The notes under the pieces are model-generated. The model did no database searches, was not told the DNA's origin, and saw only the letters and a program-made list of their open reading frames with translations. This document shows, piece after piece, positions 6,951 through 28,139 of a DNA stretch of 36,122 nucleotides. This DNA is from Phycisphaerales bacterium (GTDB taxonomy: Bacteria > Planctomycetota > Phycisphaerae > Tepidisphaerales > Tepidisphaeraceae), in contig JADLBV010000002.1 in the NCBI GenBank assembly GCA_020847545.1, forward strand, positions 1-36,122. The letters are read 5' to 3'. A program made the position numbers and the translations under genes. Every line of letters begins with the position of its first letter. Within the stretch, counting starts at the first letter, position 1.

Positions 6951-7655
6951 CTAATCCTTTTTACTTTCATCACGGAAGGGCATCCCAAACTGCTTGAGCA
7001 GTTCGCGGCCATGTTCTATGGATCGCGCGGTGGTGACCATCGTGATGTTCATGCCCTGCTGGAACGTGACGGTTGCCACGTCCACTTCCGGGAAAACGCT
7101 CTGTTCGTTAAAGCCGAAGTTGTAGTTGCCGGCCTTGTCAAAACCCTTGGGGTCCAGGCCGCGGAAGTCCTTGACGCGGGGGATCGCCAGGGCGATTAGC
7201 CGGTCGAGGAATTCATACATCCGACCGCCGCGAAGCGTGACCTTGAGGCCGGTTTCCTGGCCTTCGCGAACCTTGAAGTTCGCGACGCTCTTTTTGGCCT
7301 TGCAACGGACCGGACGCTGTCCGGCGATGACCGCCAGTTCCTTTTCGGCCTGTTCCAGCTTGCCCTTTTCGCCGCTGGTGACGGCCTTGCCCAGGCCCAT
7401 GGAGATGACAATCTTCTCCAGCCGAGGGACGGCCATGACATTTTTCAGACCCAGTTGCTGCTGCAGCGCCGGGACGATCTGGGCGCGATAGCGTTCGAGC
7501 ATGCGCGGGGTTGGCGCGGGCTGCTGAGGCTCATCGGCGCCGGCCGTGTCCAGCTCGGCTGTGGGGCCTGCCTTGGGTTTGCGGGCTTTTTTGTCCGCGC
7601 CGCCCTTGGGGGCCTGTGATTGCTTTTTCTTGTCCTGTTTTTCCTGCTCTGACAT
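6951..7655 (-). CDS. rplE: 50S ribosomal protein L5 with N-terminal extension
   Basis: Binds 5S rRNA and contacts the P-site tRNA elbow. The family core starts near residue 50 (RMLERYRAQIVPALQQQLG), followed by NVMAVPRLEKIVISMGLG and the C-terminal IPRVKDFRGL, with NFGFNEQSVFPEVD. The first 48 residues are an extra Lys/Gln/Pro-rich low-complexity segment, giving 234 residues against about 180 normally. It starts 9 bp after rplX, so the extended start fits the tight spacing. Confidence 0.97.
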   Translation of the reverse strand: MSEQEKQDKKKQSQAPKGGADKKARKPKAGPTAELDTAGADEPQQPAPTPRMLERYRAQIVPALQQQLGLKNVMAVPRLEKIVISMGLGKAVTSGEKGKLEQAEKELAVIAGQRPVRCKAKKSVANFKVREGQETGLKVTLRGGRMYEFLDRLIALAIPRVKDFRGLDPKGFDKAGNYNFGFNEQSVFPEVDVATVTFQQGMNITMVTTARSIEHGRELLKQFGMPFRDESKKD

Positions 7656-7664
7656 AAAAGCCTC

Positions 7665-7994
7665 TTACTTCTTGCCGGTGGGGCCAAGGTCGGTACCGCC
7701 GCGCACCGCGATGCGATGCTTTCGGCCGGCTCGTTCCGCAAACCGAACCCGCGTCCCTTTGCCGCTGGCCGGGTCGAGCGGCATGACGTTGCTCAGGTGA
7801 ATCGGGGCATCCTTCTGGATGCGTCCGCCCTGGGGGTTGCGTTGCGAGGGGCGAACGTGTTTCCACACGCGGTTGATGCCCTCGACCACCACGCGGTCCT
7901 GGCTGGTCAACATGCGCAACACCTTGCCGGTCTTGCCCTTGTCGGCCCCCGCGACCACCATCACCGTATCGCCTGTTTTTATGTGTCGTGCCAT
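7665..7994 (-). CDS. rplX: 50S ribosomal protein L24
   Basis: Early-assembly initiator protein near the exit tunnel. The KOW motif is visible at residues 8-30 (GDTVMVVAGADKGKTGKVLR), followed by the family part with VEGINRVWKHVRPSQRNPQG. The 109 residues match the family. It lies 16 bp after rplN, in the usual order rplN-rplX-rplE. Confidence 0.97.
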   Translation of the reverse strand: MARHIKTGDTVMVVAGADKGKTGKVLRMLTSQDRVVVEGINRVWKHVRPSQRNPQGGRIQKDAPIHLSNVMPLDPASGKGTRVRFAERAGRKHRIAVRGGTDLGPTGKK

Positions 7995-8010
7995 GTTCTT
8001 CTCAAACTTC

Positions 8011-8397
8011 TTAAACCACTTCGCTGGCCAGCGAGACGATCTTCATAAAATTCTTTTCACGCAGTTCGCGGGCGACGGCCCCGAAGATGCGCGTGCCGCG
8101 CGGATTGTTTTCCTTGTCGATCACCACCGCGGCGTTGCGGTCGAATCGCACATAGCTGCCGTCGCTGCGGCGGGTCGGCTGCCTGGTGCGGACGACCACG
8201 CAGCGGATGATCTCGCCCTGCTTGACATCGCCGGCGGGGATCGCCTTTTTCACGGCGCAGATGATGACATCGCCCACGTTGGCGGTGCGGCGCTTGAATT
8301 TGCCGCTGCTGCTGCTGCCCCGCAGCACCTTGATGCACATCGCCTGCTTGGCGCCGGTGTTGTCGGCAATGTCGAGATAAGTCTGTTGTTGAATCAT
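8011..8397 (-). CDS. rplN: 50S ribosomal protein L14
   Basis: Forms inter-subunit bridges and is the docking site of the silencing factor RsfS in other bacteria. It begins [20 protein letters not shown], with the L14 signature region [20 protein letters not shown] and [20 protein letters not shown]. The 128 residues are about six more than usual, because of a short C-terminal tail. The gene is separated from rpsQ by 104 bp carrying heptad element B. Confidence 0.98.
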
Positions 8398-8410
8398 TGT
8401 CGCTTCGCTC

Positions 8411-8499
8411 CATTTTCGATTCAGATTGTCGATTTTTGATCAAGCCGCCGAACCGCCGGCTCCCAATCACAAATCAGAAATCCATAATCAAAAATTTCG
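8411..8499. repeat. Heptad inverted-repeat element in rpsQ-rplN gap (element B)
   Basis: The left arm at 8411-8444 has units of type GATTNNN (one of them 6 bp long). A 20-bp GC-rich core follows, then a right arm at 8465-8499 of five in-phase units beginning AATC or AATT. The arms are inverted relative to each other. On the coding strand the array starts 2 nt after the rpsQ stop codon. It has the same layout as elements A and C. Confidence 0.78.
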
Positions 8500-8501
8500 T
8501 C

Positions 8502-8870
8502 CTATCGTTGTTCCGGCGCCTTTCCTGTCATCACTTCCTCGGCCGACACCTGCACCGCCCGTTCGGGCGCCCGCTGAATGATCCGCAACAGGCGGTGGTG
8601 CTTGGTCTTGCTCAACGGCCGGCACTCAGCGATCTCCACCGTGTCTCCCTCGCCCGCTTCGTTCTTCTCATCATGGGCGTGAAGCACGGTGCGACGGTTG
8701 AGATACTTGCCATACTTGGGATGGCGGGTCTGGTATTCCACCACGACCTTGATCGTTTTGTCGGCCTTGTCGGACGCCACCACGCCCTGGATGGTGCGAA
8801 GCAGCGGTCGTTCGGCAACGGCTGTGTTTGATTCTGCCATGTTCTTCACGGCGGACATTGCTGCCGCCAT
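8502..8870 (-). CDS. rpsQ: 30S ribosomal protein S17
   Basis: Primary 16S rRNA binder with an OB fold. The core runs from RTIQGVVASDKADKTIKVVV through KYGKYLNRRTVLHAHDE to the family part GDTVEIAECRPLSKTKHHRL. At 122 residues it is longer than the usual 84-90, with about 20 extra residues at each end. ATG codons at 8870, 8858 and 8840 are all in frame; the AGAGG just upstream abuts the first ATG, so the second or third may be the real start. It is 8 bp after rpmC. Confidence 0.95.
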   Translation of the reverse strand: MAAAMSAVKNMAESNTAVAERPLLRTIQGVVASDKADKTIKVVVEYQTRHPKYGKYLNRRTVLHAHDEKNEAGEGDTVEIAECRPLSKTKHHRLLRIIQRAPERAVQVSAEEVMTGKAPEQR

Positions 8871-8878
8871 CCTCTTTG

Positions 8879-9094
8879 CTAATTACTGCCGGTGGCCTTG
8901 GCGGCTTCCAGCTCACGCTGACGCAGCACGGTTTTCATCCGGGCGATTTCCTTGCGGGTCTTGTGGAGCTGGCTGGGGTCTTCCAGCTTCTCCGTCACGG
9001 CCTGGGTGCGCAGGTCAAACAGATGCTTCTGCCGCTCGGTCAGTTCGTTGCGGAGATGATCCGTTTCCTTGTCGCGTATTTCCTGAATCGTCAT
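8879..9094 (-). CDS. rpmC: 50S ribosomal protein L29
   Basis: Small helical protein at the tunnel exit near L23. The N-terminal TIQEIRDKETDHLRNELTER and the family signature KTRKEIARMKTVLRQRELE are visible. The 71 residues are within the normal range (60-75). It starts 27 bp after the rplP stop codon, the usual order. Confidence 0.97.
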   Translation of the reverse strand: MTIQEIRDKETDHLRNELTERQKHLFDLRTQAVTEKLEDPSQLHKTRKEIARMKTVLRQRELEAAKATGSN

Positions 9095-9121
9095 GATTCC
9101 CTGCTTCCAGTTTTACTATTC

Positions 9122-9544
9122 TTATGCCACCGCATGACGGCGCTGCACAAACCGGGTCGATACCGGCATCTTGTGGGCGACGCGGGCCAAGGCCCGCTTG
9201 GCCGTCGGCTCATCGACGCCGGTGATTTCAAACAACATCTGTCCCGGTTTCACCACCGAGACCCAGTATTCCGGCTCGCCCTTGCCCTTGCCCATGCGGG
9301 TTTCCAGCGGTTTGCCGGAGACCGGCTTGTGCGGGAAAATCCGGATGAAGACGCGCCCTTCGCGACGCAGAAAGTGGCTGCACGCCACGCGGCCGGCCTC
9401 GATCTGCCGGGCGGTGATCCACGCGGGTTCCAGCGACTGCAATCCATATTCGCCGAACGCCACGGTATTGCCGCGGGTCGCGTTCCCTTTCATCTTCCCG
9501 CGCTGGCTTTTGCGGAACTTCACCCGCTTTGGCATCATGGGCAT
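9122..9544 (-). CDS. rplP: 50S ribosomal protein L16
   Basis: Contacts A- and P-site tRNA and is needed for late 50S maturation. It starts [20 protein letters not shown] and has [20 protein letters not shown] and [20 protein letters not shown], followed by [12 protein letters not shown], the L16 signature. The 140 residues match the family. It lies behind heptad element C, which fills the gap after rpsC. Confidence 0.98.
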
Positions 9545-9557
9545 AAAACACCTACCT

Positions 9558-9667
9558 GATTTTTGATTTGCGATTATTGATTTTCGATTTTGGCCGCTGC
9601 CAATCGTCCATCATCCGCAAATCAACTTTTTCAATCGAAAATCCAAAATCAAAAATCTAAAATCCAT
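9558..9667. repeat. Heptad inverted-repeat element in rpsC-rplP gap (element C)
   Basis: This is the clearest copy. Five perfectly phased units of type GATTTTN occupy 9558-9592, a core of about 40 bp follows, and five perfectly phased units of type AATCNAA occupy 9633-9667. The two arms are inverted relative to each other. On the coding strand the array starts at the very next base after the rpsC stop codon (9668-9670). The transcript could form an A/U-rich stem of about 35 bp with mismatches. Confidence 0.85.
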
Positions 9668-10366
9668 TTACCTTCGTCCGCGGCGGGGTCCGCCGCCGGG
9701 CCGCACATCCGTGTCGGCGATTTCCTCACCATACATCCCGCGATAAATCCACGTCTTGACCCCGATGGTCCCGTAGGTCGTGAACGCGATCGCGTAGCCG
9801 TAATTCACATCCGCCTGCAGGGTCGTCAGCGGCACCGAGCCGGTCGTCGCCTTTTCACTGCGGGCGATTTCGGCCCCGCCCAGTCGGCCGCTGACCGCGA
9901 TGCGGATGCCCTTGGCGCCCGCCTGCATCGTCGCGTCCATCCGCTGCTTGAGCACGCGGCGGAAACTGGCTCGTTTTTTCAACTGCTCGGCAATCGCCTC
10001 GGCCACCAGTTGGGCGTTGAGGTCCGGGTTTTTGATCTCGATCACCTTGATCGGGGCGACTTTGCGCTTGATCAGGTCTTCCAGTTCCTCACGCAGCTTG
10101 TCGACTTCGGCCCCTTTGGGGCCGATCACCAAGCCGGGGCGGGCGGTCTTGAGCGTGATCGTCACTTCTTCGCGCGTCCGCTCGATCAGGATGTCGCTGA
10201 CGGCCGCGAATGGCGGTCGGCGATTGAGCTTCTGATCGATTGTTCGGCGCACCTTGTGGTCCTCGACCAGGAAGTCGCCGTATGCCGCCTTTGGGGCGTA
10301 CCAACGGCTTTTCCAGTCTTCCGTGATGCCCGTTCGAAAACCTGTTGGATTGACCTTTTGACCCAT
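9668..10366 (-). CDS. rpsC: 30S ribosomal protein S3
   Basis: Forms the mRNA entry site with S4 and S5 and has helicase-like activity. It starts MGQKVNPTGFRTGI. The KH domain shows the GXXG loop (VIGPKG, about residue 90), and the C-terminal domain has GAKGIRIAVSGRLGGAEIAR and the family part TYGTIGVKTWIYRG. The 232 residues are normal, ending in a Gly/Arg-rich tail. It is preceded by a 39-bp gap with 11-12-bp tandem units. Confidence 0.98.
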   Translation of the reverse strand: MGQKVNPTGFRTGITEDWKSRWYAPKAAYGDFLVEDHKVRRTIDQKLNRRPPFAAVSDILIERTREEVTITLKTARPGLVIGPKGAEVDKLREELEDLIKRKVAPIKVIEIKNPDLNAQLVAEAIAEQLKKRASFRRVLKQRMDATMQAGAKGIRIAVSGRLGGAEIARSEKATTGSVPLTTLQADVNYGYAIAFTTYGTIGVKTWIYRGMYGEEIADTDVRPGGGPRRGRR

Positions 10367-10405
10367 TGTGTCGTCCCTAGTCTCGTCCCAGTGTCGTTCC
10401 TGTAA
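10367..10405 (-). repeat. Tandem 11-12-bp units in rplV-rpsC gap
   Basis: On the coding strand three consecutive units of type GGGACGACACT (11, 12, 11 bp) fill the gap. The last one places GGGA as the likely ribosome binding site of rpsC. The repeat is short and could be coincidence, but it sits in the same kind of intercistronic position as the heptad elements. Confidence 0.4.
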
Positions 10406-10741
10406 TTATTCTCTCTCGTCCAACGTCACCACCAGGTGGCTGGTTCGCTTCTTGATCGAATAGGCCTTGCCGCGATCCTTGGGTTGAAACCGCTTGATCA
10501 CCGGACCCGGATCCACCCATGCGCTCGAGACATACAGCGTGTTGCGGGAGGGTACATCCTGTTCGTTGGCGTTGGCCACGGCCGAACGGACCACCTTCTC
10601 GATCATCACGCTCGCCCGCTGCTTGCTGAAACGCAGCAGCGTTAGGGCATCATCCACGTCCCGCCCGCGGATCAGACCCATCACCAGCCGCGCTTTTCGC
10701 GGCGAGATGCGGGCAAATCGATGTTTCGCTTCGCTTATCAT
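10406..10741 (-). CDS. rplV: 50S ribosomal protein L22
   Basis: Lines the exit tunnel with its long beta-hairpin. I chose the ATG at 10739-10741 (MISEAKHRFARISPRKARLV), which has GAGG 8 nt upstream and gives the usual 111 residues; an upstream in-frame extension overlaps rpsS and has no family similarity. Family parts are NEQDVPSRNTLYVSSAWVDP and the C-terminal signature KRFQPKDRGKAYSIKKRTSH. Confidence 0.96.
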   Translation of the reverse strand: MISEAKHRFARISPRKARLVMGLIRGRDVDDALTLLRFSKQRASVMIEKVVRSAVANANEQDVPSRNTLYVSSAWVDPGPVIKRFQPKDRGKAYSIKKRTSHLVVTLDERE

Positions 10742-10763
10742 TGCTCGATCCTCATTTACCGCA

Positions 10764-11048
10764 TTACGCCGCGCCCGGCGTCGCGGCCTTGCGGCCGCTG
10801 TGACCTCTAAACGTCCGCGTGGGGGCGAATTCGCCCAACTTGTGCCCCACCATGTCCTCCTGCACGAACACGCGCAGGAATTTGTTTCCGTTGTGAACCT
10901 CAAACGTATGGCCCACGAATTCCGGAATGATGGTGCACGCCCGCGCCCAGGTCTTGATGGGCTGTTTGGAGCGGTTATCGTTCAGCTTGGTGACCTTCCG
11001 GAACAACTTCTCGTTGACGAAAGGGCCTTTTTTTGAACTTCGACTCAT
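10764..11048 (-). CDS. rpsS: 30S ribosomal protein S19
   Basis: 30S head protein that pairs with S13. It starts [19 protein letters not shown] and carries the family signature [20 protein letters not shown] followed by [13 protein letters not shown]. The 94 residues match the family. The rplV start is 22 bp downstream. Confidence 0.98.
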
Positions 11049-11050
11049 AG

Positions 11051-11085
11051 TTCTCGTCTCAGGTTTCGAGTGTCAATTCTCGAGA
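11051..11085 (-). repeat. Degenerate heptad array in rplB-rpsS gap
   Basis: The 37-bp gap can be read as five 7-bp units with T and C fixed at positions 2 and 3 and usually T at position 7. The array ends exactly at the base next to the rplB stop codon. It has only one arm, and its similarity is weak compared with elements A-C. Confidence 0.4.
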
Positions 11086-11952
11086 TTACACGTTTACCGT
11101 CTGCGGCCGCTGCTGGTGCAGGCCGAACTTGCGCCGACGCAGGATCAGCTTCTCGCTGTTCTTGCGCGGGTTGCGGGTGATGCCACCCTTTGACGGCACG
11201 CCCGTCTTGGAGCAGGGATGGCGTCCGCCGTTGGCTCGGCCTTCACCACCACCCATCGGATGGTCGATCGGGTTCATCGCCTTGGCCCGCGTGTGTGGGC
11301 GGATGCCCATGTGGCGGCTGCGGCCGGCCTTGCCGATGCTCACGTTGATCCAGTCCAGATTGCCAAGCTGGCCAATCGTTGCCCGGCAGGCACTCTTCAC
11401 CCGGCGCATTTCGCCGGAGGGAAGAATCACCACCGCCCATTCACCCTCTTTGGCGCCCAGTCGGCCCACGCCGCCGGCGCTGCGGATCAATTTGCCACCC
11501 TGGCCGGGGTTCAGTTCGATGTTGTGGATTTCCAGACCGCCGGGAATCGCGCTCAGCGGCATCGTGTTGCCGATTTCAGGCGGCACCGACTGCCCGCTCT
11601 GCACGGTCGCCCCCACCTTCAGGCCCGCCGGGGCGAGAATGTACGATTTCTGGCCATCCTGATACTGGATCAGGGCGATGTGGCAACTGCGATTGGGATC
11701 GTATTCGATCGCCTGCACGGTTGCGGTGACATCGTCCTTCTGTCGTTTGAAATCGATCAGCCGATAGAGCCGCTTGTTGCCGCCGCCACGGTGCTTGGCG
11801 GTGATAACGCCATGGTGGTTGCGGCCGTTGGCGCGGCGTTGGCCGACCGTCAACGAGCGTTCCGGCTTGAACTTGGTCAGGACGGCCTTGTAATCCAGCA
11901 CCGACGCATCACGCCGGCCGGCCGAAGTTGGATTGTAAAATTTAATCGGCAT
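11086..11952 (-). CDS. rplB: 50S ribosomal protein L2
   Basis: Required for subunit association and peptidyl-transferase assembly. It starts MPIKFYNPTSAGRRDASV. Visible features are GRNHHGVITAKHRGGGNKRL, the beta-barrel part AIEYDPNRSCHIALIQYQDG, and the C-terminal region with AMNPIDHPMGGGEGRANGGR, including the conserved histidine in DHPMGGG. The length of 288 is slightly above the usual 275. Confidence 0.98.
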   Translation of the reverse strand: MPIKFYNPTSAGRRDASVLDYKAVLTKFKPERSLTVGQRRANGRNHHGVITAKHRGGGNKRLYRLIDFKRQKDDVTATVQAIEYDPNRSCHIALIQYQDGQKSYILAPAGLKVGATVQSGQSVPPEIGNTMPLSAIPGGLEIHNIELNPGQGGKLIRSAGGVGRLGAKEGEWAVVILPSGEMRRVKSACRATIGQLGNLDWINVSIGKAGRSRHMGIRPHTRAKAMNPIDHPMGGGEGRANGGRHPCSKTGVPSKGGITRNPRKNSEKLILRRRKFGLHQQRPQTVNV

Positions 11953-11967
11953 GGTTCTCTCGATTTC

Positions 11968-12246
11968 CTAGAACAACTCGATGCGAGAATTTTCGTCCAA
12001 CACCACGATGGCGCGTTTCCAGCCGCTGGTCGTGGAGACGCCATATCGCGTCCGCCGGGGCTTGCCCTTGCGGTTTTGCGTCCGCACGTCCACCACCTTC
12101 ACCTCGTACAGCTTTTCCACCGCGCACTTGATCTGGTCCTTGTTCGCATCAGGATGAACCTGAAACGTATACGAGTTGCGCGTGTTCTGCTGATGCGTAC
12201 TTTTTTCCGTGATCAGCGGCTTGATGATGATGTTAATGTTATCCAT
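11968..12246 (-). CDS. rplW: 50S ribosomal protein L23
   Basis: Exit-site protein that docks trigger factor and SRP. The N-terminal part IIIKPLITEKSTHQQNTRNS and the family signature region KRAIVVLDENSRIELF, preceded by RKGKPRRTRYGV, identify it. The 92 residues are the short bacterial form. It lies 12 bp after rplD. Confidence 0.97.
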   Translation of the reverse strand: MDNINIIIKPLITEKSTHQQNTRNSYTFQVHPDANKDQIKCAVEKLYEVKVVDVRTQNRKGKPRRTRYGVSTTSGWKRAIVVLDENSRIELF

Positions 12247-12258
12247 GGTGATTTCCGC

Positions 12259-12888
12259 TTAAGCCAGCAGTTTCTGCAAGGCATCCTTGGTCATCAACAG
12301 CGTGCGATTCCGCAGAATGTCCCACGCATTGAGCTGATCCACCGTCGTCAGGGTCGTCCGCTGCATGTTCCGCGCCGACCGCATGATCGTCGCATCCGTC
12401 TGCGGCAGCGCCAGCAGACAGCTTCGGTCGATCCCAAGCGCCTTGAACATCTGCGCTACCAGCTTGGTCTTGGGTTCGGCCAGTGCGATCTGGTCCACCA
12501 CACGCAGGTCCTGGCTTTGGATCTTCGACAGCACCGCGTGATCGCGGGCCAGCCGGCGGGCCTTCTTGGGCATCGCCTGACGCCAATCCTTGGGACGTTT
12601 CTGCTTGGCGTGACCGCCGCCCTTTTTGATCGGGTTGCGGATTCCGCCGGTGCGGGCGTTGCCCGTCCCCTTCTGGCGGAACATCTTGCGGGTGGAACCG
12701 GCCACCTCGCCGCGGGCCAGCGTCTGAACCGTGCCCTGGCGCTGGTTGGCGTGGTACATCACCAAGGCCTGCTTGAGCAGCGCCTTGTTGACCTTGCCGC
12801 CGAGCTTGGCCTCATCCACCTGGAGCTTTTCACTCTCCTGGCCGCTCTGGTTGTAGATCGGAACGTCGATCATGATCGTCGCTTTCAA
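12259..12888 (-). CDS. rplD: 50S ribosomal protein L4
   Basis: Contributes to the tunnel constriction and in E. coli represses the S10 operon by binding its leader. It shows the extended-loop region with RGEVAGSTRKMFRQKGTGNA and RTGGIRNPIKKGGG, and the globular part with LAEPKTKLVAQMFKALGI. The 209 residues match the family. Whether L4 autoregulation applies here is unknown; the rpsJ leader is short and lacks the E. coli-like multi-hairpin structure. Confidence 0.97.
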   Translation of the reverse strand: MKATIMIDVPIYNQSGQESEKLQVDEAKLGGKVNKALLKQALVMYHANQRQGTVQTLARGEVAGSTRKMFRQKGTGNARTGGIRNPIKKGGGHAKQKRPKDWRQAMPKKARRLARDHAVLSKIQSQDLRVVDQIALAEPKTKLVAQMFKALGIDRSCLLALPQTDATIMRSARNMQRTTLTTVDQLNAWDILRNRTLLMTKDALQKLLA

Positions 12889-15476: not shown

Positions 15477-15905
15477 GTGAGCCTGCCGGCAGAAATCTCG
15501 CTCCTCACCGCGGCATTGGATCTGAAGCTGATCCAGATGCTTCGTCAGGCCATGCAGCCGGCCGGCCAAAGCACTGGCGGCCTGCCGGTTGTACAAACCC
15601 CCGCCGCCATTTACGAGCCGCGACAGCACCTGCACCCCACCCCGCGCATCGAGCCGCGGATGGTGTATCACCCTACACCACGGATCGAACCACGGCTGGT
15701 CTATCATCCCACGCCCGACACCGCTCCCGCGCCGCCACCGGCCGCCCCGCTGCCGCCTCCTTGCAAACCCTTTTCACCGATTCCACCGGTCTGGAAAAAG
15801 TTGCCGCCGATTCATCATGAACAATCGGCCGGCCCAAAGATAAAGGTTGTTCATCGTCCGCCCGATATCATTCATAAAGGATCGCTGATCGACTTTTTCA
15901 TGTGA
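15477..15905 (+). CDS. Uncharacterised Pro-rich protein with 12-residue repeats
   Basis: Not recognised. From a GTG at 15477 it has 142 residues; a TTG 51 bp upstream and an internal ATG at residue 21 are alternatives, and none has a clear ribosome binding site. The N-terminal 25 residues look like an amphipathic helix (AEISLLTAALDLKLIQMLRQ), followed by two tandem copies of HPTPRIEPR[M/L]VY and a partial third, a Pro/Ala stretch and a basic C-terminus. The two repeat copies differ at seven synonymous codon positions and one amino acid, which favours a real protein-coding gene. No signal peptide or membrane segment is evident. Confidence 0.6.
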   Translation: MSLPAEISLLTAALDLKLIQMLRQAMQPAGQSTGGLPVVQTPAAIYEPRQHLHPTPRIEPRMVYHPTPRIEPRLVYHPTPDTAPAPPPAAPLPPPCKPFSPIPPVWKKLPPIHHEQSAGPKIKVVHRPPDIIHKGSLIDFFM

Positions 15906-19990: not shown

Positions 19991-20264
19991 TAGGCTCTGC
20001 CTGAAAACTCCGGTGGCCCACGATGGACCGCAAACAGGCCGGTGGCTAGGCGTCGGCGACGAAGCAGTATTTGGTATACTACAGCGAGGAGCCGCAACGA
20101 CGCCAACGGCCTGTTTGCGGTCCACCGAAGGCGGCATGAAATCGGCTCGTCCGCTTCGTTGGAACCGCTCAATGGCTCATCAAGAGCCGGTTTTCGCGGT
20201 TCCGCCTCGCGGCCAAGCCGATTTGATGCCGTCGTGGGCCGCCGGAGTTCTCAGGTAGAGCCTA
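19991..20264. mobile_element. MITE-like element with 36-bp terminal inverted repeats
   Basis: The ends 19991-20026 and 20229-20264 are inverted copies matching at 32 of 36 positions. Both termini read TA followed by GGCTCT inward, consistent with TA target duplication as in IS630/Tc1-type elements. Inside are two further inverted repeats. One pairs 20025-20041 with 20107-20123 (17 perfect bp), with a small apical hairpin at 20066-20080. The other is an imperfect stem of about 30 bp between 20139-20168 and 20196-20224, with apical hairpin 20174-20188. No transposase is encoded. Folded as one strand it is a three-way junction. Confidence 0.75.
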
Positions 20265-22051: not shown

Positions 22052-22072
22052 ATGGCCGTACACGAACCCACT

Positions 22073-22171
22073 CCCTCTCCCTGTACCCAGGGAGAGGGCT
22101 GGGGGAGAGGGTTTTTCGTGATGGAAATAAGAACCCTCTCCCTAACCCTCTCCCTGCGTACAGGGAGAGGG
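22073..22171. repeat. CCCTCTCCC hairpin cluster
   Basis: There are two perfect 11-bp hairpins with 4-nt loops (22073-22098 and 22146-22171, stem CCCTCTCCCTG). A third stem lies between them (22103-22113 with 22132-22142). All use the same CCCTCTCCC word in alternating orientation, as in REP/BIME-type repeats. It lies between the small ORF and the DUF58 gene and would form strong structure in their mRNA. No coding sequence is seen here. Confidence 0.8.
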
Positions 22172-22222
22172 AATTAAGGCTCAATCCATAAAATTTCTGT
22201 CATGGTCTCCGAATCCATCCAA

Positions 22223-27914: not shown

Positions 27915-28139
27915 ATGAATCGTCCTTATCTGGTCCTCTGGTTCGCCTTGTCCCTGTTCGTCGTGCTGGCAGGTTGGGGGCTGTATCACCAGTTGCACAA
28001 CCCTTCCCCTCCCACCACCACACAACCGACCACACGGCCATTGGTTGATCGGCTTCGCGAAGAGCGGATTCGTCGACAACAGCAACAGCAACAGCAACAG
28101 CACACCCCACCCACCACAACCACCGCCCCGTCGTTATAG
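27915..28139 (+). CDS. Small membrane protein with poly-Gln tail
   Basis: Not recognised. 74 residues: one membrane helix (YLVLWFALSLFVVLAGWGLY), a Thr/Pro linker, a basic helix (RLREERIRR), eight glutamines encoded by four CAACAG units (28077-28100), and a Thr/Pro end. The next gene starts at the last base of its stop codon (TAGTG), so the three genes GT87, this and the flippase look like one operon. The start could also be the TTG 12 bp upstream. Confidence 0.6.
   Translation: MNRPYLVLWFALSLFVVLAGWGLYHQLHNPSPPTTTQPTTRPLVDRLREERIRRQQQQQQQQHTPPTTTTAPSL

Follow-up and report, generated by a model that had tools for sequence, protein, structure and literature searches.

Element C between rpsC and rplP

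We analysed a stretch of 36,122 nucleotides, here called the window, from the 3.75-Mb genome of an uncultured Phycisphaerales bacterium (Planctomycetota; genome G000). The genes at the locus described here lie on the minus strand, and the 123-bp gap between rpsC and rplP holds two facing arrays of heptads, named element C. Heptad dyads were also present in other gaps of the window.

9668-10366, minus strand: rpsC (ribosomal protein S3; Pfam S3), the upstream gene, with the stop codon TAA at 9670-9668
9633-9664, minus strand: right arm of element C, AATCGAA AATCCAA AATCAAA AATCTAA AATC, inverted heptads of the form AATCNAA
9593-9632, no strand: core (loop) of element C, 40 bp; few genome copies have the same core
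9558-9592, plus strand: left arm of element C, GATTTTT GATTTGC GATTATT GATTTTC GATTTTG, five GATTNNN heptads
9545-9557, minus strand: ribosome-binding segment of rplP, AGGTAGGTGTTTT-ATG, kept in relatives as AGGTGNNTTATG; the insert stops just upstream
9122-9544, minus strand: rplP (ribosomal protein L16; Pfam), the downstream gene
8410-8495, no strand: second GATTNNN dyad, more degenerate, in the rpsQ-rplN gap (8398-8501)
826-931, no strand: third heptad dyad, unit CTAGAAA / TTTCTAG, in the gap 791-933

In mRNA sense, the left arm, which holds the GATTTGC unit, is the 3' arm and the right arm is the 5' arm. Read along the mRNA, the gap consists of TAA-ATG-GATTTTA-GATTTTT-GATTTTG-GATTTTC-GATTGAA, the core, AATCGAAAATCAATAATCGCAAATCAAAAATC and AGGTAGGTGTTTT-ATG. 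A first-pass annotation of the window had described five phased units facing five inverted units across a core of about 40 bp, and units, phase and core length were all as it had reported. It had placed the array at the base directly after the rpsC stop codon; the first base of the 5' arm in fact lies 3 nt past this codon (TAA ATG GATTTTA). The unit had been given as GATTTTN. GATT is invariant in the heptads of element C, but the last three bases vary, and the full GATTTTN is present in just three of the five left units.

We compared element C with dinucleotide-shuffled sequences. Identity at lag 7 reached 18 of 21 for the best-scoring segment (shuffle maximum 16), and the total was 63 (shuffle maximum 52). 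None of 5000 shuffles matched this identity, and none of 1500 matched it at any lag from 4 to 15. The dyad score was 22, with a shuffle maximum of 14. These shuffles, together with the reversed-pattern control given below, rule out a chance origin. An intrinsic terminator was also ruled out, as nothing terminator-like (GC-rich stem followed by a T run) was present at 9545-9667. The same holds for a known structured RNA family, since the Rfam 15 covariance models gave no match with E <= 1 across 7000-12500.

Copies of the element in the same genome

Element C is a dispersed repeat of genome G000. The pattern GATTTNNGATTTNNGATTTNNGATT had 35 exact matches in this genome, while its reversed control had none. 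The genes beside the copies were mixed (secA, flgN-flgK, cation efflux, a phosphoesterase). The arrays had a common heptad order and often the inner end GATTGAA, and their cores were mostly unlike. When element C was aligned to the genome, two near-full-span alignments were obtained at 70-71% identity; otherwise the arms alone aligned. A second unit type, CTAGAAA/CTGGAAA, makes dyads in this genome as well, at 826-931 of the window and at one site on contig C32.

Exactly one arm carried GATTTGC in 9 of 9 cleanly paired elements (p ~0.002; the test was framed after the data had been seen), and therefore neither arm is a copy of the other. Some genes had this GC arm upstream and others had it downstream. 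If one arm had been copied from the other, the order of units should be perfectly mirrored; this was rejected too, as the gain over permuted units was just +1.15 bp (p = 0.02). Among the features of MITEs, inverted arms were present, no target-site duplication was seen around the heptad dyads, and a shared interior was found in some copies of the related MAG JAQGHP01 (RYN_436, G002) but mostly not in G000. The G002 copies aligned across arms and core, with 77-88% identity over 100-120 nt.

Period 7 and heptad units in related genomes

Tandem identity was scored at each lag from 4 to 24, with intergenic and coding DNA taken apart. We used a 436-kb sample of the window's own genome, with the window as part of it, together with random stretches from three relatives (800 kb) and approximately 350 kb of S10 regions. 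The genomes were draft MAGs, in which genes were identified with a simple GC-codon-position rule. The S10 regions covered 351 kb in 20 relatives and contained 72 intergenic arrays with a lag of 7, 56 with a lag of 14 and 8 with a lag of 21; every other lag had 0-3. Period 7 was likewise dominant in the own-genome sample. In the random stretches lag 7 came first in two relatives and lag 14 in the third, and the period was less exclusive than in the S10 regions. Intergenic tandem order in the host family is essentially restricted to period 7 and its multiples. No arrays were found at rpoB loci, but intergenic DNA there is scant. The first-pass annotation had considered that relatives might show a random period in the rpsC-rplP gap and that the arms might not recur in the genome; period 7 was found in that gap in related genomes, and the arms recur above the control.

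There were 40 distinct consensus heptads (5' arms) in 11 genomes, for example AGTTGCC, ACTGAGG, AAATTCG, AATGACG, ACGCAGT and ATTTGCG. Genomes had several of them, and units varied between genera and between neighbouring gaps. The proposal that the 7-bp spacing persists without a fixed sequence holds well beyond the rpsC-rplP locus. The heptad units are nevertheless not arbitrary. Of the elements, 48 had G+T-rich inward-reading arms and 7 did not (p ~1e-8, for a polarity likewise defined post hoc), and optimally rotated units shared 4.16 bits, compared with about 3.0-3.3 in letter-shuffled controls (maximum 3.26). A universal heptad consensus was rejected, as it was partial only (RRTTGNN-like), with AAACTAG and ACTGAGG units as misfits.

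The arrays could have grown in place if replication slipped with a preferred step of 7 nt and the inverted arm arose when the template was switched across a nascent hairpin. Many bacteria have more heptads than any other long simple repeats, and Mrazek et al. 2007 (cited in PMC4679880 and PMC4692102) proposed a polymerase footprint as the explanation. Units are also homogeneous within arrays, and one heptad family is common to both arms of an element. We nevertheless regard such growth as unlikely. The same procedure found no lag-7 arrays when applied to 39 loci from Planctomycetia and related lineages (236 kb), so the period is not a general polymerase property. The arms are not copies of each other, copies at unrelated loci of one genome have a common unit order and inner end, and polarity and a partly shared consensus extend across families.

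Tandem binding sites, with one 7-bp unit for each subunit of a repeat or oligomerising protein on DNA or single-stranded nucleic acid, would fit the strict phase with free positions (GATTNNN) and the three to four units that make up a typical stem. MacGregor 2015 proposed S1, Csp or Csr for the TAACTGA heptads and noted that each CspB protein can bind a single heptamer (PMC4679880). Forty heptads, several of them in neighbouring gaps of one genome, misfit a single sequence-specific protein, and no candidate gene was identified. We consider this explanation very improbable, and for the modular helical-repeat protein suggested in the first-pass annotation no evidence was found.

Turnover between related species

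Comparison by rpsC gave Phycisphaerales MAGs as the closest named records. One of them, JADYZN01 (G001), encodes an S3 protein 100% identical to the window rpsC product, and its flanking genes are 87-91% identical. Out of five orthologous gaps in this sister species the element was absent in four, two of which held other hairpins, and the rpsC-rplP gap retained just a short, degenerate, one-armed remnant. In the relative G007 the same gap is near-empty (12 nt). The ribosome-binding segment AGGTGNNTTATG, directly downstream of the insert, is conserved across the family. We also observed a dispersed CACAGAG-type inverted repeat, GTGCCACCGAGGCACAGAGA...TCTCTGTGGCAC, in the G001 ortholog of the window gap 791-933 (L254) and in L017 near 1560-1640.

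JAQGHP01 contains two different S10 operons (L072 = C191, L151 = C590) that are 83.5% identical, and to judge from these sequences the MAG is probably a mixture of two congeneric species. In several consecutive gaps the two operons had arrays in matching positions, with units unlike in both arms (CAGTTGY and TGGTTGC; GGACTGA and GTGCTGA; TGGTTGC and CAGTTGC). Another pair from this genus had CAGTTGC and CAGTAGG, with equal unit number. Between genera, heptads differed in 88 of 92 same-gap comparisons. The class is kept by its spacing and layout and not by its sequence, with the same gaps filled in relatives by other units. Thus the 7-bp step and the dyad persist while the unit changes, sometimes between congeneric species at the same gap, and layout is separated from sequence. 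Neither quadruplexes nor a single sequence-specific protein is therefore likely as the general cause.

The difference of units at the same gap could come from conversion by other copies, from independent insertion or from concerted rewriting. In the last case an enzyme system would write or rewrite phased heptads in both arms at fixed intercistronic sites, so that the site, the unit number and the 7-base step are inherited and the unit is replaced in concert in each lineage. We hold such a system to be quite unlikely; if it does exist, it would define a sequence-free, step-defined class of bacterial repeats.

Placement of the dyads between genes

An ungapped stem was found in 67 of the 76 array-bearing co-directional gaps. 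These stems had a median length of 29 bp, typically three to four units, and a loop of 23 nt. The stem base lay a median of 5 nt past the stop codon (quartiles 4-10) and 15 nt ahead of the next start (10-29), and these two distances together approximate an ordinary operon gap length. Outside the family S10 sample, 18 of 21 arrays were in co-directional, 3 in convergent and none in divergent gaps, with 306, 103 and 131 such gaps available (p = 0.004 for the avoidance of divergent gaps). In the same three genomes, arrays occupied 15 of 62 gaps (24%) in S10 regions and 16 of 479 (3%) in random stretches (p = 1e-7). The rpsC-rplP gap was occupied in 7 of 10 heptad-bearing genera. Occupancy was clustered in particular gaps (p < 0.001), largely owing to never-occupied gaps, some of which may be coding extensions; among gaps occupied at least once the clustering had p = 0.03-0.15.

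This placement bears on whether the dyads are selected as intercistronic RNA hairpins. Such a hairpin would fold away ribosome-free mRNA and bring the stop codon near the next start, which could serve translational coupling or the protection or processing of polycistronic ribosomal protein mRNA. Any heptad would serve provided that the arms pair, so the sequence would drift and the stem would stay. The near confinement to co-directional gaps, the position of the stem base, the enrichment in the S10 operon and the filling of the same gaps with unlike units in several genera all agree with this. The first-pass annotation had expected a long imperfect hairpin in the transcript, and element C does fold as RNA (-32.8 kcal/mol, z = -3.0), but any dyad would fold. 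We saw no sign that the stem itself is selected. G-U mismatches numbered 71 and A-C mismatches 74 in mRNA-sense stems, and because the mismatches show no G-U bias, selection at the RNA level is not supported. Sense folds were marginally more stable than antisense folds (p = 0.04). Unit order is hardly mirrored between the arms, and the element has been lost or replaced in the sister species G001, which has no hairpin in the rpsC-rplP gap. Position clustering weakens once never-occupied gaps are removed, and the exact 7-bp period is not accounted for. Position, orientation and operon enrichment still speak for a selected hairpin, which we regard as possible, though on balance doubtful. Dyads that abut stop codons in ribosomal operons allow a direct test of translational coupling.

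Proposed spread as a DNA repeat

The weak difference between sense and antisense folds, the lack of G-U bias and the fact that any dyad would fold lead us to prefer a reading at the DNA level. We hold at about even confidence that the dyads are a dispersed, non-coding DNA repeat like REP or BIME, tolerated between the stop codon and the ribosome-binding site. The dyad consists of two convergent arms of about four phased heptads each with a variable core between them. It would have entered, or been copied into, the short intercistronic gaps that run from the stop codon of one gene to the next ribosome-binding site. Its spread may have occurred by copying or ectopic conversion, through host or element enzymes acting on DNA. 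The 7-bp unit would be the step that the copying process recognises or copies, and the mRNA hairpin would be mostly a tolerated by-product. We count in favour of a DNA repeat the dispersed copies, the distinguishable arms, presence and absence in sister species, the placement, the avoidance of divergent gaps, the lack of a G-U excess and the common polarity.

Several observations count against a DNA repeat. RAYT genes were present but without heptad association in 19 RAYT regions, and no transposase partner was found. Among these regions a clear heptad dyad was seen only at L190, approximately 0.9 kb off between other genes, and three others each had a single weak array at a distance above 1 kb. 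At L190 2130-2970 (G000:C114) the RAYT transposase gene is flanked by its own GTAG-tagged REP, GTAGGGTGGGGTTCATCCCCACC; gene and REP form a classical RAYT/REP pair, distinct from the heptads. A RAYT/REP origin of the heptads was thus rejected. In contrast to ordinary MITEs, most G000 copies have arms but not cores in common. A parasite would hardly be expected to be enriched in an essential operon. Finally, between two related species the dyad stays at orthologous gaps while the unit of both arms differs, which simple insertion does not predict.

Relation to known repeats

To our knowledge, heptamer repeats have been known from several phyla since 1990 and have no accepted origin. The cyanobacterial STRR heptamers of Calothrix (Mazel et al. 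1990, as cited in PMC4692102) are dispersed 7-bp tandem repeats, like the planctomycete arrays. The Phycisphaerales family is dense enough in heptads for testing how such repeats arise.

We file the planctomycete dyads with the known degenerate intergenic heptamer repeats of Xanthomonas type, as a variant. Tandem units, convergent pairs and the corresponding placement were all found; a G-tract in each unit was not, and this is a feature of the published examples and not of heptamer repeats at large. In Xanthomonas the heptads are GGGAATC / GGGANTN, with quadruplexes stressed as a feature, and Nostoc has GGGGA(C/T)T (PMC4692102). As in these genera, the unit is 7 bp long with fixed and free positions, four units are most common, and convergent inverted pairs are frequent (PMC4692102). 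Like the Xanthomonas heptads, the dyads are intergenic and lie near the upstream gene at its 3' end, mostly in co-directional gaps and seldom in divergent ones, and their length and sequence vary between related species (PMC4692102). Unlike those of Xanthomonas and Nostoc, the planctomycete units are mostly not G-rich (GATTTTN, AAATTCG, CTAGAAA), several unrelated heptads are present per genome, species differ at the same gap and the S10 operon is enriched (PMC4692102). The units GATTTNN, AAATTCG and CTAGAAA are without G-tracts. A/T-rich units cannot form quadruplexes yet also come at about four per arm, and therefore quadruplexes are not a general explanation.

The TAACTGA heptamers of Beggiatoaceae, Cyanobacteria and Bacteroidetes are similarly 7-bp tandem units between genes, ribosomal operons included (PMC4679880). 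Unlike the planctomycete dyads, they are direct repeats near start codons, with one inverted case reported and a single heptad (PMC4679880). REP, BIME and REPIN elements with RAYT transposases are, like the heptad dyads, short dispersed non-coding dyads between genes (PMC3116915, PMC2817692). The heptad dyads differ from REP and REPIN in having no GTAG/CGTC tag and no heptad-associated RAYT (PMC3116915, PMC2817692).

Other repeats in the window

A strong GC-rich inverted repeat, CCCTCTCCCTGTACCCAGGGAGAGGG / CCCTCTCCCTGCGTACAGGGAGAGGG, lies at 22072-22172 of the window. Similar hairpins, CCCTCTCC...GGAGAGGG, were observed in other gaps, namely the C5 element gap of G000 and the adk gap of G001. 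Nested inverted repeats within 270 bp were found at 19991-20264, with arms of 36 nt (89%), 31 nt (87%) and 30 nt (80%). Short tandem repeats were present at 28073-28105 and 15633-15717, as (CAACAG)4.3 and a 36-nt repeat in 2.3 copies, respectively.
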